Assembly (NCBI GenBank): GCA_015179125.1
Contig: WHVA01000189.1
Location: forward strand, 124,001 to 188,000
Direction: 5' to 3'
Source: Gautieria morchelliformis
Lineage: Eukaryota; Basidiomycota; Agaricomycetes; Gomphales; Gomphaceae
DNA: 64,000 nucleotides
A model generated the notes under the pieces. It did not search any database. It was not told where the DNA came from and was given only the letters and a program-made list of their open reading frames with translations. A program made the position numbers and the translations under genes. Shown in pieces: positions 15,927-42,759 of the stretch. Each line of letters opens with the position of its first letter. Within the stretch, counting starts at the first letter, position 1.

Positions 15927-18555
15927 CTGTCTACTTCTACAGGGGTAATGGGCATCGAATCTAACCCCACAACGCAAACCGATGACCATCGAGGTACCGG
16001 GCTCAGGTTGCTGTCACTCGGTAATGTTTTGATGCTTGTTATACGACACCTTCTGACTCCCTCAGCAGATGGCGGTGGCATCCGTGGCTTGTCCGAACTT
16101 ATCATTCTACAAGAAATCATGCAAAGAATCCAGCGCCAAGAAGGGCGACCCACGGTGCCCCGTCCTTGCGAATATTTCGACTTAATCTGCGGTACGAGTA
16201 CAGGGGGGCAAGTTACTTCCTTAACGATCGCCGTCGCTCTCTAATACAGTCAATGCAGGCTCATAGCACTTATGCTGGGCCACCTCCGCCTGCCCGTAGA
16301 GAAAGCGATCGAAGCCTATGCCAATTTCTCCTCGAAAGTGTTCTCCGAAAAGAAACCATTTTGGAAGGATGGAATGTTCAAGGCCAGCAATTTGGAGAAA
16401 GCTATCAAAGCGATCATCCAAGAATCGACTGGCGACCCTGACGCACGCATGCTCGATCCAAGGCCGAGCAGCGAAGTGTGCAAAACGTATGTTCACGTTG
16501 CCGCTCTTTCTTGACTTGGCACATAGCTGACCGTCACCCAGTTTCGTCTGCGCGATGCCCGCAAATAATATGAGCACACCCCGCCTCTTTCGTACGTACA
16601 CCGTAGACAAATTCGAATCACTCGACTGTGCTATATGGGAGGCAGCTCGTGCCACATCTGCCGCTCCTACCTTTTTCAAGCGGATTTTCATCGGCATTCC
16701 ACTTATGCGTGAATCCTTCGTCGATGGCGGCCTGGGTTGCAACAATCCTATCAAGCAAATGCTCAACGAAGCAGAACACATATTTCCACACCAGCATATT
16801 GCTTGCATTATCAGTATCGGCACTGGACATGTCACCACTGCCGGCCTGCCGGCACCCAGTCTGCGTAACAATGTCATACCTTTAGGGGTGGTTGAGGCAT
16901 TGAAGAAGATCACCACAGAATGTGAGACAACAGCAGAGGAAATTGAGCGGCGTTTCAGATCTGCACTGAATGTTTACTTCCGGTTCAACGTGGAGCAAGG
17001 ATTGCAGAGTGTAATGTTGGCACAGTGGGAAAGGTTACCTGAGGTGAAGACACACACATTGCAGCATCTTCAGCGGGGAAAAGTAGATGAGATGGTAGCA
17101 GCTGCTGTGACTGCTCTCAGGGAGCGCCGGGAAGTAATAGCTGCCACACACCTCAGTGCGTACAACTTGCAATGCCTCACAGCTGATGACATATGTGTTA
17201 TGGTAGACACTGTAGGAGCAGGCACTATTGGCCAGCTGTCAAGGCAGCCTGGAGCTCGCCATAAGGGTTGTCCTCCACCAACAAGGAGATTTACTGGAAG
17301 AGTAGATATCCTTTTGCAACTGGAGGGATACTTCTTCCCAGGCCAGACATCCACTGTTAAGGAGGAACAGCACATCTTTCTCTTGTATGGGCTTGGTGTG
17401 GCCGGGAAAACACAGATTGCATTGACATTCATTGAAAAGTTTCATCAACGGTGGGTAGTTGAGCAGGTCTGTTATGTCTGGACTAACTTGTGTTATGTTT
17501 AGTTTTTGGAGAGACTATTATGTTGACGCAAGTAGTGTGACCACTATGGAGTCTGGGCTTGAAGATATTGCACGGGAAGAGGGTATTGGTGAGACTGCCA
17601 AAGATGCTCTTCTCTGGCTCTCTCAAAAACACCAAGGGTGGTTGCTCCTCCTGGACAATGCTGATGATCATGACATAAACCTTCAAAAGTACTTCCCACC
17701 GTGCAAGCATGGAAATATCATTGTGACAAGTCGCAATGTGGAGTGTCGTGTGCATGCACCGGACTCCTGCTGTCATGTGTCAAGTATGAATGCTGAGGAA
17801 GCTATTCATTTGCTTCTTGTGTTCTCTACAGTCAAAGATTCTGCAAAGAATGTTGCTTTGGCATCTCTGATTGTCAAAGAACTTGGCTATCTTGCCCTGG
17901 ACATTGTACAGGCTGGTGCCTATATCTCAAAGGGATGCAGTCTAAATGAATACCTGAAGATTTTCCAGAAGGATCGAGCTCAACTGATGAGCAAGCACTC
18001 AGTACAAAGGGTGGATGACTATGCATGGGCAGTATATGCAACATGGGAGATTAGCTTTAAGAAGCTAAGTCCTATAGCAGCAACCCTGCTACACCTGTGT
18101 GCATTTTTGCATTATAGGGGGATTTCCAAAAGCATGTTTCAAAAGGCTTCTCTCATGGATCTAGATGGACCATTTGATGATGCAAGACAATTTTTGCATA
18201 ACTTTCAAACCACAGATGGGGGCTGGAGTGACTTTCAGTTTCAGGAGATCATTAATGAATTAGCTTCATACTCGTTAATTAGTACTGATGGAGAAGACAG
18301 TGCTTTTTCTCTTCATCCACTAGTACATGCCTGGGCTCAAGATAACATAGAGGTGGCAGAGCAGGAGAATAAGCAAGGCTGTACAATGCAGATACTAGCA
18401 CTTTCTATCCCAGATGAATATAGTACAGAGGATTATGCCTTTAGGAGATCTCTCCTGTCTCATGTCAATGAGCTTCATACAAAAGCTATAGATTCAAACA
18501 TGGTGGCAGAAAAATTTGCACAAGTTTTCAAAGAAGCAGGATGGTGGAAGGATGC

Positions 18556-20490
18556 TGAAGTGCTGGAGGTTCAAGTGATGGAGGCAAGGAAGAGGGTCCT
18601 TGGTGAGGAGCATCCTGACACCCTGAGGGCCATGGGCAACCTGGCCTCAACCTATGGGAATCAGGGCCGGTGGAAGGATGCTGAAGAGCTGGGGGTTCAA
18701 GTCATAGGGACAAGGAACAGGGTCCTTGGTGAGGAGCATACTGAAACCCTGAAGGCTATGGGCAACCTGGCCTTAACCTATTGGAATCAGGGCCGGTGGA
18801 AGGATGCTGAAGAGCTGGGGGTTCAAGTCATAGGGGCAAGGAACAGGGTCCTTGGTGAGGAGCATACTGAAACCCTGACAGCTATGGGCAACCTGGCCTT
18901 AACCTATTGGAATCAGGGCCGGTGGAAGGATGCAGAAGAGCTGGGGGTTCAAGTGATGGAGGCAAGGAAGAGGGTCCTGGGTGAGGAGCATCCTGACACC
19001 CTGTTAACCATGGCAAACCTTGTCTTAACCTATGTGGATCAGGGCCGGTGGAAGGATGCTGAAGAGCTGGGGGTTCAAGTCATAGGGGCAAGGAAGAGGG
19101 TCCTTGGTGAGGAGCATCCTGAAACCCTGAGGGCCATGGGTAACCTTGCTTCAACCTATTGGAATCAGGGCCAGTGGAAGGATGCTGAAGAGCTGGGGGT
19201 TCAGGTGATGGAGGCAAGCACGAGGGTCCTTGGTGAGGAGCATCCTGACACCCTGAGGGCCATGGGTAACCTTGCTTCAACCTATCGGAATCAGGGCCAG
19301 TGGAAGGATGCTGAAGATCTGGGGGTTTAGGTGATGGAGGCAAGCAAGAGGGTCCTTGGTGAGGAGCATCCTGACACGCTGAGGGCCATGGCTAACCTTG
19401 CTTCAACCTATCGGAATCAGGGCCGGTGGAAGGATGCTGAAGAGCTGGGGGTTCAGGCCATGGAGGCAAGGAAGAGGGTCCTTGGTGAGGAGCATCCTGA
19501 CACCCTGAGGGCCATGGGTAATCTTGCTTCTACCTATTGGAATCAGGGCCGGTGGAAGGATGCTGAAGAGCTGGGGGTTCAGGTCATGGAGGCAAGGAAG
19601 AGGGTCCTTGGTGAGGAGCATCCTGAAACCCTGATCACCATGGACAACCTTGCCTCAACCTATCGGGATCAGGGCCGGTGGAAGGACGCTGAAGAGCTGG
19701 GGGTTCACGTGATGAAGGCAAGGAGGAGGGTCCTTGGTGAGGAGCATCCTGACACCCTGAGGCCTATGGGCAACCTTGCCTTAACCTATCAGAAACTAGG
19801 CCAGTGGAAGGATGCTGAAGAGCTGGGGGTTGAAGTGATGGAGGCAAGGAAGAGGGTCCTTGGTGAGGAGCATCCTGAAACCCTAAACACCATAGGCAAT
19901 CTTGCCACAACCTATTCCAATCAGGGTCGGTGGAAGGATGCTGAAGAGCTGGAGGTTCAAGTCTTGGAGGCAATGAAGAAGATCCTTGGTGAGGAGCATC
20001 CTGACACCCTGAGGGCTATGGGCAACCTTGCCCTAACCTATCAGAATCAGGGCCGGTGGAAGGATGCTGAAGATCTTGCAGTTCATGTCATGGACACAAG
20101 TAAGAGAGTCCTTGGTGAGGAGCATCCTGACACCCTGAGGGCTATGGGCAACCTCGCCTTAACCTATCAGAATCAGGGCCGGTGGAAGGATGCTGAAGAT
20201 CTGGCAGTTCATGTCATGGACACAAGTAAGAGAGTCCTTGGTGAGGAGCATCCTGACACCCTGCTCGCCATGGCAAACCTTGCCTTAACCTATGTGGATC
20301 AGGCCCGGTGGAAGGATGCTGAAGAGCTGGGGGTTCAAGTGATGGAGGCAAGCAAGAGGGTCCTTGGTAAGGAGCATCCTGACACCCTTAACGCCATAGG
20401 CAATCTTGCCTCAACCTATTGCAATCAGGGTCAGTGGAAGGATGCTGAAGAGCTGGAGATTCAAGTCATGGAGTTAACCAAGAGGTCCTG
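18556..20490 (+). repeat. Tandem TPR array, 15 units of 126 bp
   Basis: Each unit encodes about 42 residues with the pattern RVLGEEHPDTL.AMGNLA.TY.NQGRWKDAEEL, the kinesin-light-chain-like TPR (TPR_10/12) seen in fungal NLRs. Units 12 and 13 are almost identical at DNA level, and most others are close. Variable positions cluster at the residue before NQG (G, W, R, Q, S, C) and after VQV. The last unit loses the frame (KRSW then stop). High internal identity implies unequal crossing-over or gene conversion. Confidence 0.9.
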
Positions 20491-20494
20491 GTAA

Positions 20495-23316: not shown

Positions 23317-23673
23317 CACAACTGACAAGGGGAAATCCGAAGTATGTATAAATGAACAAAGTATACAAGAGAGGGGAGTCTCACCTGACAAGGGGAAATC
23401 CAAAGAGAAAGGTCTAAGGACCCCCAATGTCAGCGAGCCCGTATTATACTATGCTGCGTGAGTTGCTTGACTTCCGACACTGTTCCGAGAGCAGAAGTCG
23501 GAAAGTGGAGTGGAATTGGCAAAGCAAACAGACCTGGTGGAAGTTCTGCTAGAAGCGGAATCATTTCCGAAAGCGGAAGCGGAGATGGAATGGAACACGA
23601 AGGGGAGTCGGAAATGGAGTCGGAACTGGGTGTGTGTTGGAAATGGAAATGGAAAGCAGGGTGTCCCCTGACA
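23317..23673 (-). repeat. Candidate 3' LTR of Gypsy 2
   Basis: On the minus strand a polypurine tract (AGAGGGGGGGTGA, about 23674-23687) is followed by TGTCAGGGGACACC, a plausible LTR start; Gypsy 5 uses the same TGTCAGGG start. A TATA-like GTATAATAC lies near 23450. The end is uncertain: CCCCTTGTCA occurs twice on the minus strand (at 23317 and 23384). No second LTR copy remains for comparison. Confidence 0.4.
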
Positions 23674-24387
23674 TCACCCCCCCTCTAGCGTGCTGCGTCC
23701 TTGAAGCACGGGACACGATGGATTGAAAGGCCAGCGAACAGATTCGGTGAGGGGCACCAGGGTGTGTCCTATAGAATTTGTGGAGTGTGTCTGGAGCAGA
23801 AACATCTTGCTCCAGGACCCACGAATTCTCCTCATACCCATACCCTTGCCATTTCACGAGGAATTGGAGTCGTCCTCGCACAAACCGGCTGTCCAGGATC
23901 TGTTCCACCACATAGTGCTCTTCCCCATCTACAATTTCTGGTGGAGGTGGCGGATGAGCCTTCCAACCTGGAATTGGGTCCTCAAGCACAGGGAGCAACT
24001 TCACTATGTTGAAGACGGGGTGGAGGCAGGACATGGAGTTTGGAAGTTGGAGGCAGTATGTGTTCCGTCCAACCCTTCGCATCACTGTGAAGGGCCCAAG
24101 GTAGGGTGGGCAAGCTTCTGCGAGGGGCGTGTGGTGCGGATGTCACTTGCATCTAGATACACCTTGTCTCCAACTTGGTACTCTGGGGCAGGAACCCGGT
24201 GTTGGTTGTGGTACCTTGCCATGTCATCCTTGGCCTTCGCAAGGGCAGACTTGGCTTCTGAAAGGGTGGAGTCCATGTGGTCTCGGAACTCATTGACTGT
24301 CTCGAGTCGGGACTCTGCCTGGTGTGGCTCGAAGCCCATCCGTGGGTGTCATCCAGAGTCAAGCATGAAGGGAGTCTGCTGTGTGGC

Positions 24388-25801
24388 TGTTAGGGATCGT
24401 CCACAAAGTAGCTACCTATTTATGAACATTTACTAGGTAGTTAATTAGTTTCAAATGTCCTCAAGAAAGGTTGTATTAATATTCCTATGCTACACTCACA
24501 TTGGGTCCACAACATACAACAATCTCTCTGGATAGTTTAGCTAAGAATCACCCATGGTCACATGACTATCACATGACCTCAAAAACAGCTCAAAGTCACC
24601 TGATCATCCACAGTCACCTGACAATCACCTGACCTCAAAGTCACCTGATTATCTACAGTCACATGACCTCAATCCAGCTTGAAGTCACATGACTTTCCTT
24701 TGTCACATGATAATCACATGAGCGTGGGAGTTTCTTACATACTCTTAGGTTTACTGTCACAGAGCTGTGACTTTAACCCAATATAGCAATAGAACCTTCC
24801 ACAGCCTTCCAATAGTTTCCAAACCTTTCCTGAAGCTTCTCTAAGCTTCCACAAGGTTCTTCACAGTCGTAGAAGCCTCTACAAGGTTCCTAGCAGTAGT
24901 TACATAAGCTAGATAGATGCAGTATAAATAGCCTGCAGTTTTAGCAGTGAAGCAATCAATCATCTTTCACCCAAACCACTCATACCTTGAGTAACTGAAG
25001 TGTGACTTCAACACAGCCTTGTACCGAAGTACTGGCTCACTGACTTGGTTACAGTCTAAGATTGCAGCAACTCTGATTGGCTCTGAGAAGTACAAGAGTG
25101 CTCTATTTTAATTGCAGCAGGCTCTGAATAATTGCGCTGCGAACAGCAACATTACTAAGAGTAACTGATTAGTAATCCTGTAACATTAGACGCCACTCTG
25201 AGCAGTGATCTAATAGACTTGGTTATTAGTTATTCAATTCATGCAATAGTTTATTAACTTAACTCTGAGTTAAGTGGGTTAATAGCCTTTTGAGTAATTG
25301 ATCTTTCTTGATCAATCAACGCACTGCAGATATTAACCTAACTCAGGGTAAGTGAGTTAATATCCTATGTTTGTTGAGTTGGAAAACCAGAAAAGCCACA
25401 AGAATAGTGACATACTTGAACTGGGGAAGAGTTCAAGTGCAGAACTATCTTTTCACGTCTTGGGGATTATTGTTGTCTTTCAGTCACTTGACCCGCGGTC
25501 CTAAGACTCTAGGTAGCTTTCCCCCTTAAAGTATCTGGACCCTTGGACGCCTATAAACATTCTTTGACCTCACAAAGTATTGCACAATCTAAGAACTACA
25601 CATGTTCAGTTAAATCTCTATTGCTACACTTCCTGTACCAATACTGATTCTGATTGTTCACTGGAGTATAATTTCTTAATTGGGTTCTCCGTTAAAATAG
25701 TTTCGAAGCTTGCATGTGCTTGTAAAGTCAAATCTCTGATTGAACTTTAGAATTGTGTTTAACACCACAGTTTTACGTTTAGTTCAACAGGTTCCAAAAC
25801 A
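24388..25801 (+). mobile_element. Solo LTR, 1,414 bp, with GTGGC duplication
   Basis: Begins TGTTAGGGATCGTCC and ends GGTTCCAAAACA. It is flanked by GTGGC at 24383-24387 and 25802-25806. Removing it with one GTGGC copy restores the reading of the host integrase (HSAT next to QQTPFMLDSG). A TATA box (GTATAAATAGCC) lies near 24922, so the promoter reads plus-ward. No internal ORF with a domain. No second copy of this family occurs in the window. Confidence 0.88.
24555..24722 (+). promoter_or_regulatory. Array of about ten TCAC(A/C)TGA sites in the LTR U3
   Basis: Within about 170 bp I count ten copies of TCACATGA or TCACCTGA, E-box-like octamers, some 200-370 bp upstream of the TATA box. Spacing is irregular (about 9-30 bp). 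The arrangement looks like a multimerised bHLH-type binding region controlling element transcription; the factor is unknown. Confidence 0.6.
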
Positions 25802-28407
25802 GTGGCGGAATGTACGTGGTTGTTGTATTGGAATTCCGCCAGTGGAAGTAGCTCGTCCCAGTCATCCTGCCTCTCGTTGACAAAGAGGCCAAGATATTGC
25901 TCCAGCTCCTGATTGACCCATTCCATCTGTCCGTCACCCTGCGGATGGTATGCTGTGGTGGTAGCCAGCTTTATTCCGAGCAGGCGGTAGAGCTCCCGAG
26001 TCAGTTCTGCAATGAACTGCGGACCTTGGTCGGAAACAACTTGCTTTGGGAGCCCATGCAACTTCCAGACATGTGCAAGGAACAGGCAGGCGTCTCCAAG
26101 GGCTGTGATCGTTGTGTGCATCGGAATGAAGTGGGACACCTTGCTTACCGAGTCCACGACATTCATGATTGCATCGTAGCCATAAGACTCTGGGAGTTCA
26201 ACAATGAAGTCGACACTGATGGTGTCCCAGCGGGATTCTGGAATCAGGAGTGGAACAAGCTCTCCGATGGGTGGATGTTGCTGTGCTTTGGTCCAGAGAC
26301 AAAGGTCGCATGTCTTCACGTACTGTCCAATGTAATGGGACATCTGAGGCCACCAGTAGTTCCGAGCCACTAACTCCAGCGTCTTCCACCTGCCAGCATG
26401 TCCTGCAACCCAGGTGTCATGGTGCTGTGACACAATGCGGTGGTGGAGTCTGCCCCATCTGGAACATAGACCTTGCCCCTGAAGTGGAGCAACCCATCGC
26501 ATTCTGACCACTCTGCTGCCCGCACTGACCGTGAATGCCCTTTCCGCAGCTCCTCCACCGCCTTCACCACCAATTCCTCCTTCTCTCCATTCTGGTACTG
26601 CCTCTGGATGTCTCGGAGCATTTCTGCTTCCGCCCCCACTGCGGTCACTCCTTCAAGGGCACGGATTGCAAAGAGGCTTGGGCGGAGCAATGTCATGTCC
26701 ACATTGTCTCTGCTTCCACTTCCATGATCCACACGGCGGGATAGGGCATCAGGCTTGCCCATGGTGCAGCCGGGGCGATGATGGAGCGTGAAATCGAACC
26801 GAGACAGGTATAGGGACCACCGTGCTTGTCGTCGGTTTAATGTCTTGGACATGCAAAAGTACTCTAGGTTCTTGTGGTCCGTCCAGATCTCTAACGGACA
26901 CAGAGCACCCTCAAGGAAGTGTCGCCACTCCGTAATTGGATGCCACCTGCCACCATCTTCCAATGACTGCTGTGACAAGACCGCTCCGGTGGCTGCATCG
27001 GAAGAATCTGCCTTGACTCAATAAGGGCAGGAGGAGATCGAAGAGGGCATGGGCATGGCAGGAGAAGTCCTTGATAAACCACCGGTAGAAATTGACAAAC
27101 CCAATGAAGGACTGGACCTCTTTCTTATTCCATGACGCAGGCCATTCTGACACACCGGAAGCTTTGACCGGGTCCATTTCCACCTTTCCTTCTGATAGGA
27201 TCACCCCAAGATACTCTATTCACGTCCGCTCAAATTCGCACTTCTCCGGCTTGAGACACAGGTTGTACTCCCGGAGCCGTTCCAACACTCTCTGCACGAC
27301 CTCCCGATGTTCCGACATTGTCTTTGTGAAGATGAGGATGTCATCGAGGTAGATGCAGACAACCCCTTCAGCTATCATGTCACGGAAGATGTCATTCATC
27401 ATCGTCTGGAAAGTGGCAGGACTGTTGGTGAGGCCAAAGAACATGACCCGTGGCTCAAAGAGTCCTCGGTTGGTGCGGAATGTGGCCTTCCACTCATCTC
27501 CTTCATGGATCCGAACATTATTGAAGCGCCAGTGGACATCCAGCTTAGTGAAGTACCTTGCCCCGCGGAGTTGTGTGATCAGTTCGGAAATGAGTGGAAT
27601 GGGGTACCGGTTCTTGATCGTGATCGCATTCAAGGCCTGGTAATCCTGCACAAGCCTGAGCAAGCCATCCTTCTTCTTGATGAAGAACACCGGAGATGCC
27701 ATGGGTGACTTGGAGGGGCGGCTCCTCCCTGTACGGAGGTTTTCCGCAAGGAATGCATCGAGCTCTACCTGCTCCTTGGGTGACAGCGGGTGGACTTTGC
27801 AGTTGGTGGGCTTTGACCCAGGCTCCAACTCGATGGCATGGTCCCACAGCTTCCGTGGAGGCAGGGCATCAAATGACTCCTTGGAAAAGACGTCCTCGAA
27901 CTCCCATAGGTACTCCGGAATCTCCACCTCCACTCTATCATGCTTCCTGGAGGCTTCGGCAAGGGGTTGTGAAATATTTCCGGTGGCACGGATGTGTTCT
28001 GCTTCTGATGGAAGGGTTACGTACAGCAAGTGCTCCCCCTCCGCCAGAGTGTCTTCTGGGCCAAGTCGGACGATGTCGGAATCTGAATCGGAATCCGAAT
28101 TGGAAGTGGGAGCTGGTTCAAATTCCGCTTCCAAATCCTCTTCTGCAAGCAGCGGATGGGGGCCAGAACGACATGTCTGTATGAGCCACTTGGTCTTCCG
28201 CTGCTCCTGGCGCTCCCTCCGCACTTCCGACCAGCACATGTGACACTTGGCTGGGTAACTCATCCGCACCTTCCGAGTCTGCCAGTTGATCTCTGGGTTG
28301 TGCTCCTGCAGCCAAGTAAACCCGAGGATGATGTCTTGCTTCCCCAGGCTGGTGACTGCAAAGGAAGTGTGTTCCGTGTGTCCATCGTAGTGGAGAATCG
28401 TGTCTAC

Positions 28408-28571
28408 TACTACAAGGGTGACCGGATATGTGGTCTTGATGAGCGATGAAGAGTAATAGAGTCGAAAGACCAAGGTAATAGAACAATGGGCGGAATGTTG
28501 GAAATATCGGAGGGGCGGAAAGTGTTGCGGAACTGAAGGTCGGAAGTCGGAAATGAACGATGGTCGTAACA
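28408..28571 (-). repeat. 3' LTR fragment of Gypsy 3
   Basis: The first 164 bp of the LTR (minus strand, starts TGTTACGACCAT) match 36215-36378. The match ends at CACCCTTGTAGT, where Gypsy 2 protease sequence begins. An open frame crosses this junction, so the apparent N-terminus of the 28704-27220 frame is LTR-derived, not protein-coding in origin. Confidence 0.8.
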
Positions 28572-28691
28572 GTATCTCCCTTCTAAGGTCGAGCCCCGCA
28601 AGACCACAGGTCGGATCACGTGACCTGTGAACAAACGCGTCGGAGTTTAAAAATAGGCTGAGGAACAAACGCATCTTCTTTCCAATCCAAC

Positions 28692-29701
28692 ATGAGTGCC
28701 CCAATTGACTTCTCCAAGATGACGAGTGCCGAGATGAAACAGCATTTCGCTGACATGCTCACGCAAAAGGAACTGGCCGAAAAACGTGAGGCCAAGGAAG
28801 CTGCGCGGAAAGAGAAGGAACGTTGGGAGAAAGAGTGGAAAGAACAGGAGAGGAAGGACCGCGAGCGCCGCGAGGAGGAGGACCGCGTCTGCGAAGAGAA
28901 ACGGAAACGGAACGCGGCTAAGAAAGCTGCTGAGGACAAGGCTGCTGCAGAGAAGGCAGAAAAGGAACAGGTGAGTCGGGAATGTCCGGCGGAAATGTCC
29001 TTGTATTAACTGAAAAATTCTTCCAGAAAATTGTTCAGGACGAGTCTGAGTCAGACTCGGAAGGTTCAGCGGAAAGTACACCGTCTCCCGAAGGAAAAGG
29101 GAAACAAAAGGAAACCGCTCCTTCGGTGAACCTTGTGGCGGAACGGAAACAGCGGGCGGACGAATTCCAGAAGGCTCGAAAGAGCAAGTTAAATTGGATG
29201 CTGGAGTTGCATGAACTAGGATCGAAAAATCCCACGACTAAGAAGCGGAAAATGCGGGACGGCGATGAAGAGGAAAAGGCTCCTTGCGACCCATGCGAAT
29301 CTAGGGGGCTGGATTGCACGTGGTCGAGTAATCCACGGGAAACTTCGTGCGATCAGTGCCGTGACAAGAAAAAACGCTGTGTCGTGGACGGGTGTGCCTC
29401 GAGGGTGGAGCGAAAGAAACAGAAGGTTGAGGAGTCGATTCCAAAGTCGGAACCGGGACCGAGCGGAGGTAGGTCCAAGGAATCATTTCCGGTTACCGGA
29501 AAATCGGGACAGGCGGTGTTGAACCGGTTTACTATGTCTTATCCCCTCCTTGACATTGCCGGGTCGCTGAGGGCCATGCGGAAACAGCAACGCGAAATCC
29601 GGGACATAATGATTGATATGGCAGAGGATCAGCAGCATCAGGTTCTGTCAATTCAGAACCAGATGACTGTTATGTCCACAGTCCTGGAACAGGGTTGGTG
29701 A
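28692..29701 (+). CDS. Antisense gene inside Gypsy 3: coiled-coil protein with Zn2Cys6-type cluster
   Basis: Exon 1 28692-28970, intron 28971-29026 (GTGAGT...TTCCAG, 56 nt), exon 2 29027-29701; 317 residues, phase 0. Residues 1-93 are a highly charged coiled coil (KEKERWEKEWKEQERKDR). An acidic Ser/Glu stretch follows. Residues 180-211 have six cysteines spaced CX2CX6CX10CX2CX6C, exactly within the Gal4-type Zn2Cys6 rule. Next is a basic Lys/Arg patch, then a C-terminal helical region (MRKQQREIRDIMIDMAEDQQ). Zn2Cys6 proteins are fungal transcription factors that bind CGG triplets; here the cluster is unusually central. A TATA-like TTTAAAAATA lies about 45 bp upstream, and an ATCACGTGACC box lies near 28613. 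The gene is intact and convergent with pol. DNA binding is inference. Confidence 0.75.
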
Positions 29702-29907
29702 GTGTCGAGGTAGGAGAGGCGGAAAAAGAGCCGGAAGCAGAGAAAGAGGTCGAGGCGGAGACAATGAGGGAGGAGTAGGGGCCTAAAAGACTTGTATATA
29801 ATTTCTTGAAATGTCGGGAATAGTATAGTGGAAATTAATCGTATTTTGACAATGACTTGAGAACTTGTAAGAAAACAATGGGGGATCGGAAATGAGGTTG
29901 GATTTGA
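29702..29907. other. Convergent spacer between antisense gene and pol end
   Basis: About 206 bp separate the two stop codons. The spacer presumably holds both 3' ends; no clear polyadenylation signal was identified. Confidence 0.4.
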
Positions 29908-32900
29908 CTAGGGCGCGGAAATGGGGCCAGGCTTATCGGGATATGACTTGTGAAAATCAGAGACGAGGTCAGAGGTGTGATCAAGTTCCGTGGCGGAAAT
30001 CCAGGAAGTCTCTTCGTCAGTGTTTTCATAGCCTGCCCACTTGACTAGGTACTGGAGTTGGCAGCGGTATCGTCTGTCGAGCTTGGAGTTGAGAATTTCC
30101 GAGATTTCATATTCCGGTTCTCCGTCGATGATTACCGGTGGAGGCGGAGGTTGTTGTCGATTCGGAATTGTATTCGGAACTGCGGGCTCAAGCATAGAGA
30201 CGTGGAATACCGGGTGTACTGGGCGCATATTGTCAGGAAGTCTGAGGGTGAAAGAACGACTGCCGGCCTTAGCGATGATCTCGTAAGGTCCAAGGTATTT
30301 TTCAGAGAGTTTCTTCGAGGGGCGAGTGGTGCGGAAGTTTTCAGCTTTGACAAAGACTTTGTCGCCTATCTTGAATGCCGGTTGCAGAAGTCATTTCCGA
30401 TTGGCGGAAGTTTGGTATCTCTTCTGGGCAGTGGAGATGTTCTCTCGGAGGTGCTGGTGAAGATCATTGAGTTCCACAACGAAATCTCGGGCTCTTGCAG
30501 AGGCAAGGTCGCGTTCAGGGTGGATGGCGAGATTCGGGTGGTAGCCCTTGTTGGCGTAGAAAGGCGAAATTCCGGTGGTAGTGGAAGGTGCATTGTTGTA
30601 GGCAAATTCCGCGATCAGAAGGAGGTCGGACCAATTGCTGTGTTGGTAGTTGCAATAGACGCGGAGATACTGCTCAAGGGTCTGATTAGTACGTTCTGTT
30701 TGTCCGTCTCCTTCGGGATGATAACCGGAAGTGAAGTGGAGCTTCATGTCGAGAGCCTTGCCAAGTGTGCGGAAAAAGGAGGACATGGATTCTGATCCAC
30801 AGTCGGAAGTGACATGGGAAGGAATTCCGTGCTTGGAAAAGACGTGGAGCATGAAGAGCTGTGCGAGCTGGGTGGAAGTGATGGTGTCGTATGTCGGAAT
30901 AAGATGGACTGCTTTGTGAGGCGGTCAACGATCACTAGAATGGTATCATAGCCAGATGACTTAGGAAGTTTCTCAATGAAATCCATGGATATCGAATTCC
31001 ACGGTTGTTCCGGGATCGGAAGTTGCTTCAGGAGGCCGTAGGGTTTGTGACGTTGAGGCTTGGCTCGCATACAGGTGGTGCATGACTTGCAGTAGTCTTG
31101 GACCGTCGTGCGGAGGAGAGGCCAAGTATAGGTATGTCGGATTATGTCGAGGGTTTTGTTCTGGCCTTGGTGTCCTGAGAGCGGATGATCATGGCTTTGC
31201 TGGAGTACGCAAAGTCGTAGATCGTTGGCATCCGGAACGTAAATCCAGGACTTGTACCAGAGAAATCCGTCGGAATCAAGGGACCGTCCAGGACTGGTGG
31301 GGTCATCGAGGTGGGCTGCGGAGATGGGGTCGGAATGGAGTGCGGAACGGATGTCGGAATGGAGAGACTCGGTGTCCATAATAATTGAGGCGCGGAGTAG
31401 CGGAAACTGCAATGCTGTGGCACGCAGGGATGATGCCAGTTTCTCAGTGGAGAATACTGGGCGGAAGTTGTGCGGATTAACGCTGGCATAGTCGCTACTT
31501 CCCTCTTTTGGGTAGATGTCCCAACGTCTAGTGAGTGCGTCGGGTTTTGCTCCGAGCTTTCCGGGGCGGAAGCGGATCACCATGTTGAACTGTGAGAGAT
31601 ATTCAGACCAGCAGACTTGACAGCGAGTCAAAATCTTAGTAGTTGCAAAATACTCAAGGTTCTTATGATCCGTTACAACGTCGATGGATAAGTTGGACCT
31701 TCAAGGTAGTGTCTCCAGATTTTGAACACTTCAAAAATCGCAAGTAGTTCCTTATCGTGGATGTTGTAGTTGAGTTCCGGGGCGAAAAGGTACGGGAATG
31801 AAAGGCGATCGGATGAATTTCTCCATCGTCGGGGGAAATGATGGAAAGAATGGCGGCTAGTGCATAGTCGGAAGCGTCGGTTTCGAGTACAAGTTGCGCA
31901 TCAGGAATCCAGAAACCGAGTATGGGAGCCGTAGTGAAGGCCAATTTGAGAGCTTCAAATGAGGAACGGCATTCCAGAGTGAAATTCCATGGGGCACCCT
32001 TCCTGCTGGTGAGACGCGTGAGCGGAACAGTAATGTCGGAAAAGTTATAAATGAAACGTCAGTAAAAGTTGGTGAAGCCAAGGAAAGACTGTACATCCTT
32101 AACACGTCGGGGTTCCGGCCATTCTTGAATTGCCTTGACCTTGTCCTCTGCCATGGTAAGACCTGTTGGAGAGAGGATGTAGCCGAGGTATTCGACCGTG
32201 TCGCGATGCCATTCACATTTCTCTGCTTTTGCGTAGAGATGGTGTTTGCGTAGACGGCAGAGTACTTCGCGGACATGTTCCCGATGTTTTTCCGGTGAGT
32301 CGGAATAGATGAGGATCTCGTCAATGTAGACTAGGACGTATACGTCGAGAAGGTCGGAAAATACGCCGTTCATGAATTGCTGAAAAGCGGCGGGAGCATT
32401 GGTTAGACCAAAAGGCATGACAACCCACTCAAAAGCACCGTAGCGGGTGCGGAAAGTGGTTTTCCACTCGTCACCTTCCCTGATGCGGACAAGGTGATAA
32501 GCGTGCCGGAGGTCAATTTTGGTGTAGATCTTCGCCCTGCGGGGAGTGTCGAGTAGGTCGGAAATGCGCAGAAGCGGATATTTGTCCTTTTTAGTGAGGG
32601 CATTGAGTCCGCGGAAATCGACGCAGAGGCGGAGAGATCCATCCTTCTTCTTGACGAAAAGGACCGAGCGCCGTGCGGAGACAGCGAGGGGCGGATGAAG
32701 CCCATGTTGAGATGTTCATCGACAAACTCTCGCAGAGTCTGGAGTTCACTTTGCGAAAGGGAGTAGATCAGTCCAAGGGGCGGAGATGCTCCTTCTTCCA
32801 AATCTATCTTCAAATCGTAAGGTCGATGTTCAGCGGGTTTATCGGCTTTGGCCTTATTGAACATGTCCGGGAAGTCACGATATTCTTCCGGAACTGAGCT

Positions 32901-33570
32901 CATGTCAACCGGAGCGGAAGTCGAGGCGGAACAAGCCTTGACTGAAGCCGAGTCGGAAAGGGGAAACTGAAAAACGGTTGTATCTTCTTGCCGTTGCAAT
33001 ACCGGAAAGCGGTGGCGGAAACGAGCGCAATTTGAGGAGCTTCGAGGGCGGAGGTGCTAAAGCGGGACCGGAGTGCGGAACTGAATCCACGAGCGGAGTT
33101 GCAGAAGAGGCTTGAGCCATCTGTGCGGACGACGTCGGAATAGACGGAAGATGATCCGGTGTATGGAACTGTATTTGACCCAATGCCCAGTTAATTGACG
33201 GATTATATCGGGTGAGCCAATTGTGTCCTAGTACAACAGAACAGCTAGCATCTAGTGGAGTAACGTAAAACGTAACTTCATGGTTGTCCCCAGTAGCGAA
33301 ATGGATAGACAGGTCCACGACTTGGGAAATTGCCGTGTTGTAAGACCCATCGAAAAGGCGGAGCGGAATTGTCGGAATGTTGCGGGTCGGAAGTTTATGT
33401 TTCAAAACAAAGTCGGAATCGAGGAAACAATGAGTCAACCGGAGTCGATCAATGCTGTGAACGGGGGTGCAGAAATTGTGTCGGAAGTGAGCGGAACAGA
33501 GAGGGAGTGGAGGACGAAAGAGCGGATGCGTTGAGTTTAACCTCGTTTGTCGCACGAATGGGGTCAACAC
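29908..33570 (-). pseudogene. pol: Gypsy 3 pol: PR-RT-RNaseH-INT-chromodomain, frameshifted
   Basis: The protease (32905-33570) has a frameshift just after its DSG active-site motif. RT spans about 32059-32900; the catalytic motif reads VYIDEILIY, so the second Asp of YxDD is Glu. RNase H begins near 31930 ([13 protein letters not shown]). Integrase (30744-31631, 30391-30852) has the zinc region HPLSGHQGQNKT...CTTCMRAKP and core residues SMDFIEKLP, TSDCGSE and GQTERTNQ. TGA at 30391-30393 follows ANRK. The GPY/F segment and chromodomain (EPEYEISEILNSKLD, LQYLVKWAGYENTDEETSW) end at 29908. At least four frameshifts are present. It belongs to the same clade as element C (same MLEP.PPNTIPNR..PPPPPVIIDGEPE linker). 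Confidence 0.85.
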
Positions 33571-33606
33571 AGCCCTCAGCTCATGCGGAGGCCGGAGGAC
33601 TGCTGA

Positions 33607-35691
33607 CTATTTTTTTGCATCCCTAGCAGGAGCTGCTTCGGATTTTTCTTCCGTCTTCGCCGCACGGCCCTTGGCCTTTGCAGCGGAAGCGGAAGCTCGA
33701 GTGCAATCGCGAGCAACGTGACCTCCCTTGCCGCAGAAGAGGCAAAGGTTGTTGTCCATGCGACGCTGGCGTTCTACAGGGGTAAGTTTTCCATCCTTCC
33801 CAAGTTTGTCGGAAAGGTCTGGAGTGCTCTTCCGGGCGTTGGTGTTGGAACCAGAGGCCTGGTTATTGCAAGGGGTGGAGTTGTTGTTCCGGTTGCCGGA
33901 GTTGGATCCGGAACTGTTGTTGTTGTTTTTTCCAGAGTTGTTGTTTCCGGAATTAGTCTTCTTCTTGTCTTTGTCAGACTTCTTGTCGGAAGACTTGTCG
34001 TTCTTGCTCTGGGCGGAAGTTTCGCGAGCGATCTCAGAATGTCTTTCCCAGTAGCGTGAATCGATGGATTGGGCTAAATTGCGAAGGTCGGTAAGGGTGG
34101 CGGGTTTTCCGACGCGGGCAATTTCATCCTTGATCCGGGATGGCAAGCCCATGTAAAACTGGCATCGGAGTGCGGCTTCTCCCCATTGGACTTGAGGAGC
34201 GAGCTGCTGGAATGTGACCATTGTTACGACCGTTCATTTCCAACTTCCGACCTTCAGTTCCGGAACACTCTCCGCCCCTCCGATATTTCCGACATTCCAC
34301 CCATTGTTCTATTCCCTTGTTCTTTCGACTCTATTACTCGGACCCACCGGACCCGCTTCATCGTTCATCAAGACCATATATCCGGTCACCCTTGTAGTTC
34401 GTTGTCAGACATGTTTTCCCGACCCCTTGTCCTTTGCCATTGTTTTACCTTACCTTGAACCTCCCTTGTAGTCCTATTGTTCCCAATTAGTTAGTTCCCA
34501 TGCATTGTCTACTCGACTTCCGCTTCCCCGGAAATTGCTTAGTACTACCCCATTACCTGTTGTCTCAGCTCTTTGTATAAAAGCCTGTCATGCATGTCTG
34601 TTATTTTGCAATCAGATAATCACCTTCGATACTTGATTTTCTTCGCTCCATCTCCTGTTCTTAGCACAGCGAGTCTAGCAAGACCTCAGTCTATCCACCT
34701 TCCGTCTTCCGCCTCAATTCCGCCTCAAGTTCCGACCAACCTTCAGTTCAGTACATTCCGACTTCCGACCCATTTCCTAAATACCTAGGACAATAGTTCA
34801 TTGGGGGCGCAACCTACAAGTTGAAGCCGCTGTCCTTTCCAGTTCCGACTTAGCGGAAATCTCGATACGTAACAATGATATATTTAGCTATCTTATGAGT
34901 GTCTTTCATACGAAGCTTATCGAGTTCATTTTCCGCATCGGCTTCCATATCAAATGGTCCGAAGTTGCTGCGGAGTTCAGAAACGAAGTTGTGGTAATCG
35001 TTGGCCCAGTCGACGAGAGCGAACAGATCCATGAGGGCGGGTTCGAAGTAGTCAAGAGCCGTGCCTCGGAGATAGGAAAGGGCGTAATTGACCTTTCGTT
35101 CGTCATCGGGAAAGGCGTCGGGACGATCACGGAAGTTGAGTTGAAGCTGGACCAGAAATGGCTGGAGCTTCTTGGGGTCGGAACCGTCGAATTGATCTGG
35201 TTCGCGGACCTTTGTCTTGGGGCGTGGTGGTGCTTGGGCCAGGCGCTGGAGTTGTCTGGCTAGCACGGCGATGGCTTGTGCAAGATCTGGAACTGGCGCG
35301 GGCGGAACTGGGTTGGCGGGAATCTGAGGTGGGATTGGAGGTGGAGGACCGCCTGGGGGACCGCCGGGTGGGCCGCCATGAGGCCGCCTGGAGGTGGTCC
35401 TGGTGGAGGTGGTGGTGGTGGAGCTGGGCGTCGGAATGACGCTGCTGTTTGTTCACTGCTGCTACTCGTCGAGTTTCCATCATAGTCGGGATTGTCGTTG
35501 GGATTAGCGTCAGGATTAGCGTCGGGAACTTCTTCGAAGCGTTGCGGAATAGCATCGGAGAGCTCATCGTCGGCACGAGAGCTGCCGGAGGGTTCCGCAT
35601 GTCTTGGTGCTGTGGATCTAAGACTGCCAAAATAAGAGAGAGCTTCGACAGCTCCTGCTCGAGCTGAAGTAGCTGTGGTATGAGGAGGCAT
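33607..35691 (-). pseudogene. gag: Gypsy 3 gag, split by an inverted solo LTR
   Basis: The N-terminal part (34875-35691) is Pro/Gly-rich (PAPPPPPPPGPPPGG) and leads into a Retrotrans_gag-like domain (FDGSDPKKLQPFLVQLQLNF, ALSYLRGTALDYFEP). After the 653-bp LTR the frame resumes (VTFQQLAPQVQWGEAALRCQF), has an Asn/Ser/Lys-rich linker (NSGNNNSGKNNNN), and ends with a CCHC knuckle CLFCGKGGHVARDC (near 33730-33770). One frameshift lies near 35260. Upstream sits the self-complementary primer-binding site. Confidence 0.8.
34222..34874 (+). mobile_element. Solo LTR of the Gypsy 3 family, inverted inside gag
   Basis: 653 bp, starts TGTTACGACC and ends TACGTAACA, about 95% like 35725-36378 but in opposite orientation. 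It interrupts gag between AKYI and VTFQQL. The flanks ACCAT and ATGAT agree at only three of five positions, which could be a decayed duplication. TATA box GTATAAAAG near 34574. Confidence 0.85.
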
Positions 35692-35711
35692 AGCGATAGT
35701 TATCGGGTGGG

Positions 35712-35722
35712 AATCAGATAAT
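35712..35722 (-). promoter_or_regulatory. Self-complementary primer-binding site of Gypsy 3
   Basis: Two nt after the 5' LTR the element sense strand reads ATTATCTGATT, the exact complement of AATCAGATAAT at the predicted first 11 nt of the transcript (35978-35988). This is the layout of Tf1/sushi-type self-priming, where the mRNA 5' end folds back and primes minus-strand synthesis. No TGG-type tRNA site is present. Confidence 0.65.
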
Positions 35723-35724
35723 AC

Positions 35725-36378
35725 TGTTACGTATCAAGATTTCCGCTAAGTCGGAACTGGAAAGGACAGCGGCTTCAACTTGTAGGTTGCGCCCCCATGA
35801 ACTATCGGCCTAGGTATTTCGGAAATGGGTCAGAAGGTGGAATGTACTGAACTGAAGACTCGTCGGAACTTGGGGCGGAATTGAGGCGGAAGACGGAAGG
35901 CTGAGAGACTGAGGTCTTGCTAGACTCGCTGTACTAAGAACAGGAGATGGAGCGAAGGAAATCAAGTATCGAAGGTGATTATCTGATTGCAGAATAACAG
36001 ACATACATGACAGGCTTTTATACAAAGAGCTGAGACAACAGGTAATGGGGTAGTACTAAGCAATTTCCGGGGGAAGTGGAAGTCGAGTAGACAATGCGTG
36101 GGAACTAACTAATCGGGAAACAATGGGACTACAAGGGGGGTTCAGGGTAAGGTAACACAATGGCAAAGGACAAGGGGTTGGGAAAACATGTCTGACAACA
36201 AACTACAAGGGTGACTGGATATGTGGTCTTGATGAATGATGAAGCGGGTCCGGTGGGTCCGAGTAATAGAGTCGAAAGAACAAGGTAATAGAACAATGGG
36301 CAGAATGTCGGAAATATCGGAGGGGCGGAAGGTGTTGCAGAACTGAAGGTCAGAAGTCGGAAATGAATGGTCGTAACA
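35725..36378 (-). repeat. 5' LTR of Gypsy 3
   Basis: 654 bp. In element orientation it runs TGTTACGACC...TACGTAACA. TATA box GTATAAAAG (plus-strand complement at 36015-36023). The predicted transcript start, about 34 nt downstream, falls on AATCAGATAAT (35978-35988). The flank 36379-36383 is ATAGT. Confidence 0.88.
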
Positions 36379-37656
36379 ATAGTCGGCCACTACGGCCATC
36401 TGAAGACTTCGAACTACGTTCGAAGAGCATATTGGTGGCCGGGCATGAGCCCAGACATAGAAGTGTTCTGCACATCGTGCGCGAGGTGTCAGATGATGAA
36501 AACCGGACCACAATGGCCCAAAGGCCTACTACACAGCCTACCCATTCCGGATAGGCCGTGGCAGTTGATTGGCATCGACTTCATGGGGCCTCTGCCCAAA
36601 TACAACGACTGTGACTACCTGATGGTAGTCATCGACCGACTAACGTCGCTCGTACACCTCGTACCAACCACGATGAGCGTGTCAGCCAAGGGAGTAGCCT
36701 GGCTGTTTCTGAAGGAGGTCGTTTGACTCCATGGAGTTCCCAACTCCATCATCTCGGACAGAGACTCGAAGTTCACGTCGATCTTCTGGCATGAACTACA
36801 GCGACTCATGGGGACTAAGCTCCTCATGTCAACTGCCTTCCATCCCCAAATGGATGAAGCCACCGAGCGGGCAAACCGCTCGATCAGCCAGATATTGCGC
36901 GCGGTCATCAGAGATGATCAGAAGGATTGGGCATTGAAATGCCCAATGGTTGAGGTCGCCCTCAACAGCAACATCAGCGCAACCACAGGGTTCACACCTT
37001 TCGAGCTGAACCACGGCTATATGCCGCGGATAGACCTCCCCATAGCCGTGGACACCCCGTTCAAGGGGGTAGCCCGGTTCGCACATCAGGCAAAATGGAA
37101 CCTGATGGCGGCACACGATGCAATCATAGAGCATCGAGTGACGCAAACGTTTCATGCAAACAAGAAACGTATGGTGAGCGACAGGTACGCGGCCAACGAC
37201 CGCATCTACCTTTCGACACAAAACCTAACTCTCCCGAAAGGAAGAGCCAGAAAACTAGTCCCGTGGTACATTGGACCGTATCGCGTCGTTGAGGCTCACA
37301 ACGACGCCTCGACGGTGACCCTTGATCTTCCCGACAAGCTGAAAAGCCGTCGCATTTCACCGGTCTTCCATTCAAGCCTCGTACGGCGATACGAGGCTAA
37401 CAACGACGAATTGTACCCTCGTCATGAGGCCAAGTCATTTTATGACTTCGGAGCGAATGACAACGAGGAGTGGCTCGTCGACGAGATTATCGCACATCGA
37501 TGGATAAACTCGATGGACCTGGAGTTTCAGGTCCGTTGGACCCTAGGCGACGTGACATGGGAACCCATGTCGTCCTGCAAGGACCTTGAAGCCCTAGATA
37601 TCTATCTAGAGCTTCGGGGGGTGAGCAAGCCACGTGACCTCCCCAGACGCAGCTAG
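36379..37656 (+). pseudogene. Element A integrase with chromo-like C-terminus
   Basis: Zinc region end (HYGHLKTSNYVRR, CTSCARCQ), DDE core (GIDFMGPLP, SDRDSKF, EATERANRS), GPY/F (YIGPYRV) and a chromo-shadow-like end (DLEFQVRWTLGDVTWEP). The TGA at 36724-36726 corresponds to CGA in element B, so a C-to-T change broke the frame. Otherwise the frame is open to TAG at 37654-37656. Confidence 0.85.
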
Positions 37657-39788: not shown

Positions 39789-40003
39789 TGTAAATAACCT
39801 ATGTATCTACATGTACAATAGTTATTACATAATCCCAGTGGGCCCCTTAGGGACCCACTGTATAGTTTATGCGTGGGAACCGGACAGTGGTCCCCATCGC
39901 ATCTTACTCTTACCTGTCACTATGTAGCATTCAGAATACCACTCATTGGTCAAGTTCTGAAGTGCCCTTGTGATACAAGGTCCTAAGATCGACATCCTTT
40001 ACA
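39789..40003 (+). repeat. 3' LTR of element A
   Basis: 215 bp, begins TGTAAATAACC after the purine tract AGAGGGGGAGGG (39777-39788) and ends CATCCTTTACA. It abuts integrase codons of element C. Confidence 0.7.
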
Positions 40004-40756
40004 CGTGCTAACCAGACCTTGGAACAGTACCTCAGGAGTTACTGCAACTATCAGCAGTCCAACTGGGCTTCGCTCCTTCCCCTAGCCGAGTTCGCTTACA
40101 ACAATGCGCCTAGCGCAACCACTGGTATATCCCCGTTCTTGCTAACAAGGGTTACCACCCGAACCTCGCGGTTCACCCGAGCATGACCTCGCCTCGGCAC
40201 AAGCTCAAGACTTCGTGGTTGACCTGGACGAGCTTCACCAAGAACTTCACCGCACCATCCTCGAGGCTCAGAAGACCTACCAAGCCTCGGCCGATGTTCA
40301 TCGCAAGCCCGCCCCTGATTTCCAAGTAGGATCCCTCACATTTGTAAAGGCACAGTACTTCAGGACAACTCGGCCCACCAAGAAGTTCGCCGAGAAGTTC
40401 TTGGGTCCTTTTGAGATCATTTCCCGAGCGGGTACTCACTCCTTCACCCAGTATTCCATGTATCCATGCTCGAACCAGCCCCGCCCAACACCATCCCGAA
40501 CCGAGTTCAGCCTCCTCCGCCCCCAGTCATCATCGATGGCGAACCCGAGTTCGAAGTCTCAGAAATCCTCGACTCCAAGATCGATAATAGACGGAAGAGC
40601 TGCAAACTGCTCTATCTCGTTCGGTGGACTGGTTACGAAGGTACCGACGAAGAATCCTCGTGGATCCTCGCTTCCGATCTTGATCATACCTTGGAGCTGG
40701 TCACTGACTTCCACGAGTCTTATCCAGGCAAGCCGGGACCTTTGACTGCTCTATGA
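40004..40756 (+). pseudogene. Element C integrase end and chromodomain
   Basis: The integrase C-terminal part ([19 protein letters not shown], then a frameshift near 40140; VDLDELHQELHRTILEAQKTYQ; FLGPFEIISRAG) is followed by a proline linker and the chromodomain (GEPEFEVSEILDSKID, LLYLVRWTGYEGTDEESSW), stop at 40754-40756. At least two frameshifts. Confidence 0.8.
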
Positions 40757-40876
40757 TCCTTTCCTTGTTTAACCCCCATGACCCCCAGTAGTTAGATAAC
40801 AAAAAATCCTCGCAATCGAACAACAAACAAAAAGAAAAGAAAAACACCAAGAAATTACATTATTCCCTTAGTTAGT

Positions 40877-41895
40877 TTACTCCAACATCCTCATATCTTC
40901 CCCCTCGCTTCCCTCGCTATTCTCGCACGACTCCTCCTCATTACTACTACTACTTCGCTCCACTAGACCCCCATGTCCCCCATAGCTCGCCAAATCCCTC
41001 GCCACCTGCATCCGCTTCAGATAGTTCCGCCGCCTCCTTATCCTCATGAATTCCACGTCCGCCCTGTTCATCCTATCATTTGCCGCCCTAAACTCCCCCA
41101 ACAACTCACAAACCCTCTCCCCAACCTCGCCAACCTTCTGTCCCACATCCCTCACCGCCGCTATCAACTCCCTCATCTCAGCACTTCGCTCCGACCTTTT
41201 CGTTTTCTTGTCCTTCTTCGCCCTCCACCTTCCTCGACCTCGGTTTCCTTTCCCTCACTCTGCCTCCTCACCTCCTCAACCTCGCTCCCCTCAGCCTCCT
41301 TTCCCTTCTCCTCGCTCAACCTCGCTTCCATCCGCTCCACCCTCACCTCCAAGTTTCGCTCGACCCAATCACTTGAGTCATCGTCGTTTTCAACATCGTC
41401 CCGAACCTTGGTCTCTTTCTTCGGCCTCGGTCCGTCCTCGCTGTCCTCACTCCTCGCCCACTTCCTGCCCACCTCGCTCGCCTGACCTTTCCCTGGTTCA
41501 CCTTGCTGCGACTACCATGGGCTATACTACAGCCCAAAGATCGCATCCTGCACCACACGCAGGCACCCTGGTCGGCGAGGCCGAAGTCGAGGCTAACGGC
41601 CCAAAGGCACGTATAGTCGCGCTCTTCGCAGCGCACGCACCTCGCCTCGGCCTTGGTCGCGAGTTGCCACTCACAAGGTCCTCCGTCGGCGAGCTTGTAC
41701 CCGTATAGGGACAAGTCTGTGGGGTGGTACGAGAACAGCATGCGTTTATACTACACAAGTCAGCAGCGTCCATGACGAGACTATGACGGTACTCACCTTC
41801 TTGCCTTTCGGCCCTTCCTGCCACGGCTCCCGCATATCTATGGCCCCCGCATCCTCGATGGGCCACGGTACCACCTCGGGTTGAACCTCGGGCAT
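40877..41895 (-). pseudogene. Second antisense Zn2Cys6-like gene, in element C
   Basis: Minus strand. Exon 1 is 41797-41895 (33 codons, starting MPEVQPEVV). The intron is 41751-41796 (GTGAGT...TGTGTAG, 46 nt). Exon 2 continues from 41750. It encodes six cysteines spaced CX2CX6CX15CX2CX6C (CVRCEERDYTC ... CVWCRMRSLGC), like the cluster in the Gypsy 3 antisense gene but with a longer middle loop. Then come a charged region (SEDSEDGPRPKKETKVRDD, ARLSEEKGKEAEG), a basic KRKGRSE patch and a helical C-terminus (MRELIAAVRDVGQKVGEVGE) ending in an acidic tail at 40877. Two one-base frameshifts (near 41490 and 41180) break it. Its position, between chromodomain and 3' LTR and convergent with pol, is the same as in Gypsy 3. 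Confidence 0.65.
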
Positions 41896-42173
41896 AACCT
41901 CACCCAGGGACCATCCTCCTCAGACAGCAGGGTCTGGTCGAACGCGTTATTCACACTGCTTTCCTCAATAGCAGAGTTGAATAGTGGTTGAGGGCGCACC
42001 ATATTCGTTGGCACTTGGGTTTGCTGCCTCCTACCCAGCCTTTTATCTAACCTCGGCTACGATTTAAGCTTTGCCTTTCCGCTACTTAACATTGGGCCGG
42101 GATCTAGATTCAAGGATAGGCGAACCTTGTTCATATTACGGCCTCAAGGGTCTTGGCCATAAGGGGGGGATAC

Positions 42174-42722
42174 TGTAAGAACCCGCCTTTGGCCGGTTAC
42201 TTACCGGTATAACCTTTCTTCCGAGCCCGAGCCTTGTGATACTCGTGCCCAAGTACTGGTGATTCTAATCCCGCACCCAAGCCCGAGCTAGAGCTAGAGC
42301 TCATATCCAACTCTGACCCCATGCCCGAATCCCCTTAGTTACTGATTCCGCTCCATCACGCATCATTCGTATATTACCTCACCCTGACCTCGCCCTGACC
42401 TTCCCCCGCATTTGCTCGCCCCTGACTCGTACCCTCGCTCGTATATAAACCCCCTTGTATGCATTCCTACTCCTCAGTCTGAAAATCAACTATGTATACT
42501 TTGATTCCTAGTTAGTTTCTAAGCCTTGCCCCCTAAGCCAAACCTCGCCTCTTATTCGTTTGCCTCCGAAGTTGGGACTCGTGCGTAGGGTTGGTGCAGC
42601 ACATAAGCTGAAGCCTAGTCCCTCTCGGACTTCCCTATCAGAACCTCACCCCGTAACCTCGGACCGTACCTCGGGTTTCGCCCCCGAGCTTGGCCAACCT
42701 TACGAAGGATCGTATCGTAACA
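42174..42722 (+). repeat. 3' LTR of element C
   Basis: 549 bp, from TGTAAGAACCCGCC to ATCGTATCGTAACA. TATA box GTATATAAACC near 42440. It follows a purine tract and abuts element B at 42723. Confidence 0.75.
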
Positions 42723-42759
42723 CCCCCGGCTTAAGTCCAGTATCAGGACAGCGGCCACG

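Follow-up and report, generated by a model that had tools for sequence, protein, structure and literature searches.

The question raised by this locus is what a spliced gene, read from the strand opposite gag-pol, does for the retrotransposon that carries it. The gene, called ag here, lies in the window (the whole 64-kb stretch of Gautieria morchelliformis DNA that was analyzed) within a Ty3 element that spans 36384-28409 on the minus strand (Table 1). A sequence-only reading had taken ag for an intact gene encoding a Gal4-type protein that could control the element through CGG-type sites.

The antisense gene and its element

The element is a chromovirus, with reverse transcriptase, integrase and a C-terminal chromodomain between LTRs, and the Pfam matches were RVT_1 (3.7e-38), Integrase_H2C2 (2.2e-18), SH3_Tf2-1 (9e-21) and Chromo (4.1e-08). 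Its pol is broken into several frames. Its 3' LTR is cut at 28409, where another Gypsy element (23564-28408) starts, and what had been read as the 3' LTR is only a remnant. Since pol is split over frames and ag is truncated, this copy is dead. The element's own gag is interrupted by a solo LTR from its family, inserted in reverse orientation.

The two-exon structure of ag, with its ATG and its GT-AG intron, was confirmed, as were its position inside the element, between the chromodomain stop (29908) and the LTR end (28571), and the six cysteines in the pattern CX2CX6CX10CX2CX6C. The gene is not intact as had been claimed, because about 130 bp are missing from the window copy near 29693 and this leads to the early stop at 29701. 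Other ag copies run about 75 residues past the position of this stop, and the C-terminal reading frame of the family is visible in the window to 29779, in another frame. The ag proteins of the family are about 390 aa long and end in ...VSVEVGEAEKEPEAEEEVEAETMREE. The intron is 53-56 bp long across the 30 copies in which the gene was traced, and an A-rich box resembling the TATA-like sequence of the window copy is found in most of the ag leaders compared. When all six reading frames of the window were searched by regular expression for CX2CX6C-X4-40-CX2CX6C, only two matches were obtained, ag and the gene of a sister chromovirus (41529-41639). Both are antisense beside a chromodomain, and for this reason a chance occurrence of the pattern was rejected.

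Table 1. Positions of the features of the ag element and of the sister chromovirus in the window
Feature	Position	Strand	Remark
ag exon 1, encodes N-terminus with charged coiled coil (MSAPIDFSKM...)	28692..28970	+	ATG at 28692
ag intron, GT-AG, 56 bp	28971..29026	+	
ag exon 2, ends at premature stop in window copy	29027..29701	+	
Cluster CX2CX6CX10CX2CX6C of ag	29285..29380	+	
TATA-like TTTAAAAATA in ag leader, within element	28646..28655	+	
5' LTR	35725..36384	-	660 bp, 11 CGGAA/TTCCG
Leader and 5' gag segment (DUF4939)	34875..35724	-	
Solo LTR, same family, nested in gag	34216..34874	+	93% to 5' LTR
Rest of pol plus 3' gag segment, frames broken	30394..34215	-	integrase H2C2, RVT_1, zf-CCHC_5
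Pol end: SH3_Tf2-1 and chromodomain	29908..30390	-	ORF stop at 29908
3' LTR remnant, 163 bp of 660-bp LTR	28409..28571	-	
Polypurine tract AGAAGGGAGA, element sense, adjoining LTR	28575..28584	-	read directly
Array of 106 CGGAA/TTCCG (nested LTR not counted); 83 are TTCCG on gag-pol strand	28409..36384	-	
Sister antisense gene exon 2, C-terminus frameshifted	41346..41750	-	cluster 41529-41639
Sister antisense gene intron	41751..41796	-	
CCTCG-dense stretch, coincides with sister element	40001..42700	+	

The cluster of ag reads CDPC-ESRGLD-C-X10-CDQC-RDKKKR-C. The conserved cysteines of the PF00172 type, CX2CX6C-Xn-CX2CX6C, are present in 31 of 31 intact ag frames, and to this extent the Gal4-type assignment stood. 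The order of the halves did not agree with it: in PF00172 the basic half comes first and in ag the halves are swapped. Scanned alone, the first half of the ag cluster matched Zn_clus at 15-35 (17.4 bits) and the second half at 1-13 (9.7 bits). The Zn_clus match that had been expected was obtained with the window protein at 13.9 bits (E 0.06), and with the cluster alone at 19.6 bits at best, against a gathering cut-off of 21; in three of the four ag family members scanned the scores were weak. Because the halves are swapped and the Pfam score is below the cut-off, ag is not a plain Gal4-type cluster. It looks Zn2Cys6-like in pattern, and we do not assign it as a member of PF00172. In an AlphaFold model of ag exon 2 alone (mean pLDDT 61) helices 36-67 and 173-222 were confident, the long C-terminal helix having a pLDDT above 90, and a confident cluster was absent from this model. 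Among 116 candidates scored from a protein database, no relative of window ag residues 126-317 was found at E<=1. Wider database searches, each over about 8000 candidates sharing most words, gave only two partial relatives, both of them Gautieria gene models that cover 28% and 7% of the query, and there was no credible relative by sequence in the PDB. A Gautieria gene model, P0002, matches ag exon 1 over its first ~65 residues and continues as an unrelated protein with PF20414; it is possibly a host gene model that has taken the promoter and first exon of the element.

Conservation and selection in two families

Searches of the genome with ag gave 76 pieces by DNA and 660 candidates by protein, of which the best 150 were scored. 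From both searches 60 loci were taken, which represent 46 distinct places; all 46 were found through their ag match and family copies without ag are therefore uncounted. Within this set ag is present in 46 of 46 copies, and a refuting condition of the sequence-only reading, a lack of the gene in most copies, did not apply. The order chromodomain (on the opposite strand), ag and LTR was seen in 45 of them, the exception (L021) having no chromodomain in reach, and an LTR in element orientation lay on the other side of ag in all 46. The alignment shows the GTGAGT donor in 44 of the 46 copies, and a strict gene pattern predicts a spliced product longer than 250 aa in 30 and of at least 370 aa in 22 of them. 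Only an antisense gene could keep its intron in an element that is copied via sense RNA, and the orientation of ag fits this. Among the 150 scored protein matches, which were ranked best first and hence are skewed to intact ag copies, 126 were counted by eye as having no stop, down to 63% identity. One ag match of 66% identity (G000:C139:94515-95183) is within an open frame of 1298 aa and is a possible fusion.

The ag frame is under purifying selection, so that a second refuting condition of the sequence-only reading, neutral evolution, did not apply either. Its pooled pN/pS was 0.217 in 31 intact exon-2 frames out of 46 (29 distinct proteins), the frames having been picked for intactness and the pairs being pooled and not independent. 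The two remaining frames of the plus strand gave 1.35 and 1.53. On the minus strand the values were 1.45, 0.35 and 1.72, and the frame with 0.35 is the complementary codon register whose third positions pair with those of ag. Of the 218 sites at each codon position of exon 2, 46, 39 and 101 were variable at the first, second and third position, respectively. The six cysteines of the cluster and a seventh downstream of it are invariant in all 31 of these frames. The idea that ag is a captured passenger gene was rejected in view of the selection on it and its many copies.

The antisense gene of the sister chromovirus has the cluster pattern CX2CX6C-X14-CX2CX6C, and an intron was found just upstream of its exon 2 in all 20 loci read. 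Its pN/pS in frame was 0.204 over 80 codons in the 16 of 20 loci that have no stop; the first four cysteines are kept in 16 of these 16 and the last two in 15. A chromodomain lies opposite the sister gene in 17 of the 20 loci. In one of these loci, L032, the chromodomain is of another Gypsy type: here a sister-type relic adjoins a chromodomain with 88% identity to that at 23564-24142, both CGGAA and CCTCG are raised, and the locus is either a recombinant or has a nested neighbor. When the ag and sister proteins were compared by hhalign, they aligned at the cluster only, in register (E 0.015, probability 2.9). Since the profiles align there only, common descent of the two proteins is likely and unproved.

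Words multiplied along the elements

The proposal of CGG-type sites fits the enriched word of one family: no other 5-mer is as enriched in the element and in the ag family as CGGAA. The proposal does not extend to the sister family, whose word, CCTCG, contains no CGG. In the 7317 bp of the window element there are 106 CGGAA/TTCCG, where 13.2 would be expected at the density of the remaining window sequence. Dinucleotide-shuffled versions of 28409-34215 contained 17.8 +- 3.9, and 88 were seen. Trinucleotide shuffles of the sense strand gave a z of 9.4 for TTCCG and 3.2 for CGGAA, and when gag-pol was shuffled among synonymous codons, TTCCG was found 51 times against 17.1 expected and CGGAA 18 times against 7.2 (z 5.0). 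Tandem repeats were rejected as the source of the whole excess, as the element contains no more than four short arrays. In 500-bp bins the word rises at 28.4 kb, falls at 36.4 kb and flips its strand over the nested LTR. The coverage between these ends is even, the largest gap being 274 bp and the variance/mean in 250-bp bins being 0.69.

CGGAA/TTCCG occurs at 7.1-20.0 per kb in the 46 ag loci, and in the 20 loci of the sister family the range is 0.9-7.1. Genome-wide, 24098 triple TTCCG clusters were counted against 1418 for a backward control without CpG, a roughly seventeen-fold excess. In the listed part of contig C1, for which cluster positions were compared, the three ag copies, which include one at 64% and one at 68% identity, lie within TTCCG clusters with ag on the opposite strand. 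Of the other TTCCG clusters on C1, many are without a listed ag in their vicinity and are solo LTRs or unlisted copies. In the sister loci CCTCG was counted 806 times where 198 were expected. Triple CCTCG clusters genome-wide numbered 3581 against 2037 in the control, which is only 1.8-fold, and on the contigs for which CCTCG positions were listed, all three sister copies lie in such clusters in the right orientation.

In three other Gypsy stretches of the window (6279-10817, 36385-37653 and 42500-46578) no comparable enriched word was found, and in the Gypsy at 47942-54048 only ATATA was enriched. The Copia element of the window (11667-15752), which has a single intact gag-pol frame of 1362 aa, showed CGGCA at a z of 5.5, and the region of a gene with long regular TPR repeats (17459-20491, units of ~126 bp) showed its own repeats at z values up to 8.2. 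Repeats of this type occur in fungal NLR-like proteins. In the Gypsy at 23564-28408 CGGAA is enriched as well, more mildly (z 4.8 and 7.6) and with no bias between the strands. When 150 of 3673 candidates of its family were compared by eye with the listed ag copies, they did not lie beside them, with one exception (L032, C249). This excess in an element without a known ag suggests that the link between word and gene is strong but imperfect, or that the ag protein is exploited in trans, and the family of this Gypsy could use the ag protein in that way.

The two families share the spacing of their different words. Pairs of words in the same direction are commonest at 12 bp in the ag family and in the sister family alike. 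In the window element, with one LTR counted, there are 7 such pairs at 12 bp, two of which are supplied by a 12-bp tandem array (31317-31364); the mean after jitter was 0.9 (P 0.0016 over all spacings 5-40). Eight independent alignment positions of the ag family have this spacing against a mean of 2.0 (P 0.001). In the sister family, for which the spacing was preset by the ag family, there are five against 1.0 (P 0.004).

Possible functions and known systems

The reading that we prefer, and to which we give an even chance, is that the element addresses itself: the ag protein, probably as a dimer, would bind the family-specific word along its own element and would plausibly help it to resist silencing. 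The gene would be transcribed antisense from a putative promoter just inside the 3' LTR and then spliced. Its product would bind DNA and would combine a permuted Zn2Cys6-like cluster, predicted to hold zinc, with basic patches and a C-terminal coiled coil through which it may pair after entering the nucleus. The dimer would read direct repeats of the family word, favoring those 12 bp apart, along its own copies, and the word, CGGAA in the ag family and CCTCG in the sister, would have been spread by the element over its whole length. Binding would mark these copies and shield them from heterochromatin or methylation, as VANC does for VANDAL. This anti-silencing effect is the least certain step of the self-addressing reading. 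That the coverage is even and not clustered in the LTRs suggests an action on the chromatin of the whole copy more than a promoter switch. The wider idea, that permuted Zn2Cys6 dimers and words which diverge together, the words being spread at a 12-bp geometry along the whole element with the synonymous sites of gag-pol included, form a self/non-self address throughout the lineage and allow a family-specific escape from silencing, is tentative and falls somewhat short of an even chance.

DNA binding does not require a strand bias, and the bias that was found is a real point for a role at the RNA level. On the sense strand TTCCG outnumbers CGGAA 2080 to 476 in the ag family, and in the sister family the counts for CCTCG are 667 to 139, mostly in the pyrimidine form on the sense strand; this four- to five-fold bias is seen within the LTR as well (9:2). 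It could be that UUCCG, or CCUCG in the sister, is bound on the sense RNA by the zinc knuckle of Gag (zf-CCHC_5) or by another RNA-binding protein and serves in packaging, export or protection from splicing, and that ag is independent of the word and has a different task. The whole internal element is genomic RNA, which would suit such a role. We nevertheless consider it unlikely, because several other Gypsy stretches of the window, which need Gag as well, have no such word, and because a 12-bp spacing common to different words fits DNA dimers more than RNA. In addition, the opposite orientation is also above chance in the window element (19 against 6.6, and in gag-pol under the synonymous shuffle), although this excess is weaker and is not found at all loci (5 against 3.0 in L028).

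It is more doubtful still that ag represses its own element, as copy-number control or as immunity against further copies. Antisense retroviral proteins can be repressive, and the saturation together with an antisense promoter would serve a repressor equally well. However, self-repression alone gives little reason to multiply sites through coding sequence, and the most recent copies hold more sites, 20.3 per kb in nine near-identical young copies against 15.1 in the 35 others. The lower density in old copies is partly due to CpG decay.

HTLV-1 HBZ is the product of a spliced antisense gene read from the 3' LTR side and is a nuclear coiled-coil regulator of its own provirus. Like it, ag is antisense, spliced, adjoins the 3' LTR and encodes a coiled coil, and since the 660-bp LTR holds 11 sites, ag could be a transcription factor restricted to the LTR and its own promoter, the remaining saturation having another cause. 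HBZ is a bZIP protein, unlike ag, and we know of no saturating target word for it. Such a restriction is improbable because the sites are evenly spread, gag-pol (15.6 per kb) being as dense as the LTR (16.7 per kb). Very improbable is the explanation that the word reflects a composition or mutation bias of the elements and not selection. The related words GCGGA, GGAAA and TCCGA are enriched in the ag family too, and the mild CGGAA excess in some Gypsy elements without ag would also fit a bias. Against it, the excess survives dinucleotide, trinucleotide and synonymous-codon shuffles, most of the related words overlap CGGAA itself, the neighboring sister family has a different word, and CGGAA ranks second among 116 CpG-bearing 5-mers in retention between copies (0.74; median 0.60). 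That the active product is an antisense RNA and not a protein, as has been proposed for plant aORFs in PMC7264820, is hardly credible in view of the frame-specific purifying selection in two families.

The sister pair with its different word, together with a candidate target, makes the function of an antisense gene testable by one in-vitro binding experiment. If the self-addressing reading is true, sequence-specific self-recognition would extend from plant DNA transposons to retrotransposons, selection would write the address of a protein into the synonymous sites of a whole mobile element, and the two natural pairs of protein and word would allow swap experiments. In the open-access papers searched we found no LTR element that combines an antisense gene with its own multiplied word, and no fungal element with either a saturating word or an antisense gene of the Zn2Cys6 type.

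Antisense genes of LTR retrotransposons were first described in plants and their function is called unknown in PMC7264820, according to which they are known between pol and the 3' LTR in plants and, as brtn, in Botrytis. The brtn gene of Boty from Botrytis cinerea (Zhao et al. 2011, as cited in PMC7264820 and PMC8365987) is, like ag, an extra antisense gene between pol and the 3' LTR of a fungal Ty3/Gypsy element. It comes from an ascomycete, and its likeness to ag is one of place and orientation. The antisense ORFs of the plant element Retand resemble ag in place, in orientation, in being present in most copies, and in that a nuclear or DNA-binding-type product is suspected. They carry TRP28, which is thought to bind DNA (PMC11963269, where HTLV-1 HBZ is also mentioned), instead of the cysteine cluster of ag. 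Retand is not a chromovirus, and in the accessible part of that source tandem repeats are mentioned and a family-specific word, such as the ag element has, is not.

With the Zn2Cys6 proteins of the Gal4 type ag shares the two CX2CX6C halves, one of them basic, the coiled coil downstream and, in the ag family though not in the sister, a CGG within the word. It differs in the swapped halves, in the score below the cut-off and in being encoded antisense in a retrotransposon. Fungal DNA transposons have captured TET/JBP genes (PMC12730594), which like ag are genes of fungal transposable elements and are suggested to oppose silencing. They encode an enzyme, they are in DNA transposons and, as far as that source describes them, they have no sequence word.

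The likeness to VANC of the Arabidopsis VANDAL elements (PMC5735166, PMC10398659) is one of arrangement, and no homology is claimed. VANDALs are DNA transposons, unlike the LTR element with ag. For VANC, binding and demethylation have been shown, whereas the ag protein is proposed to bind its word. The words of VANC are in noncoding tandem repeats (PMC5735166), whereas the ag word is mostly interspersed and also fills coding sequence, as its density in gag-pol shows. In both systems a protein encoded by a transposable element is found together with a short, family-specific word multiplied in its own family, and in both, related families differ in their proteins and in their words, which in VANDALs evolve in parallel.
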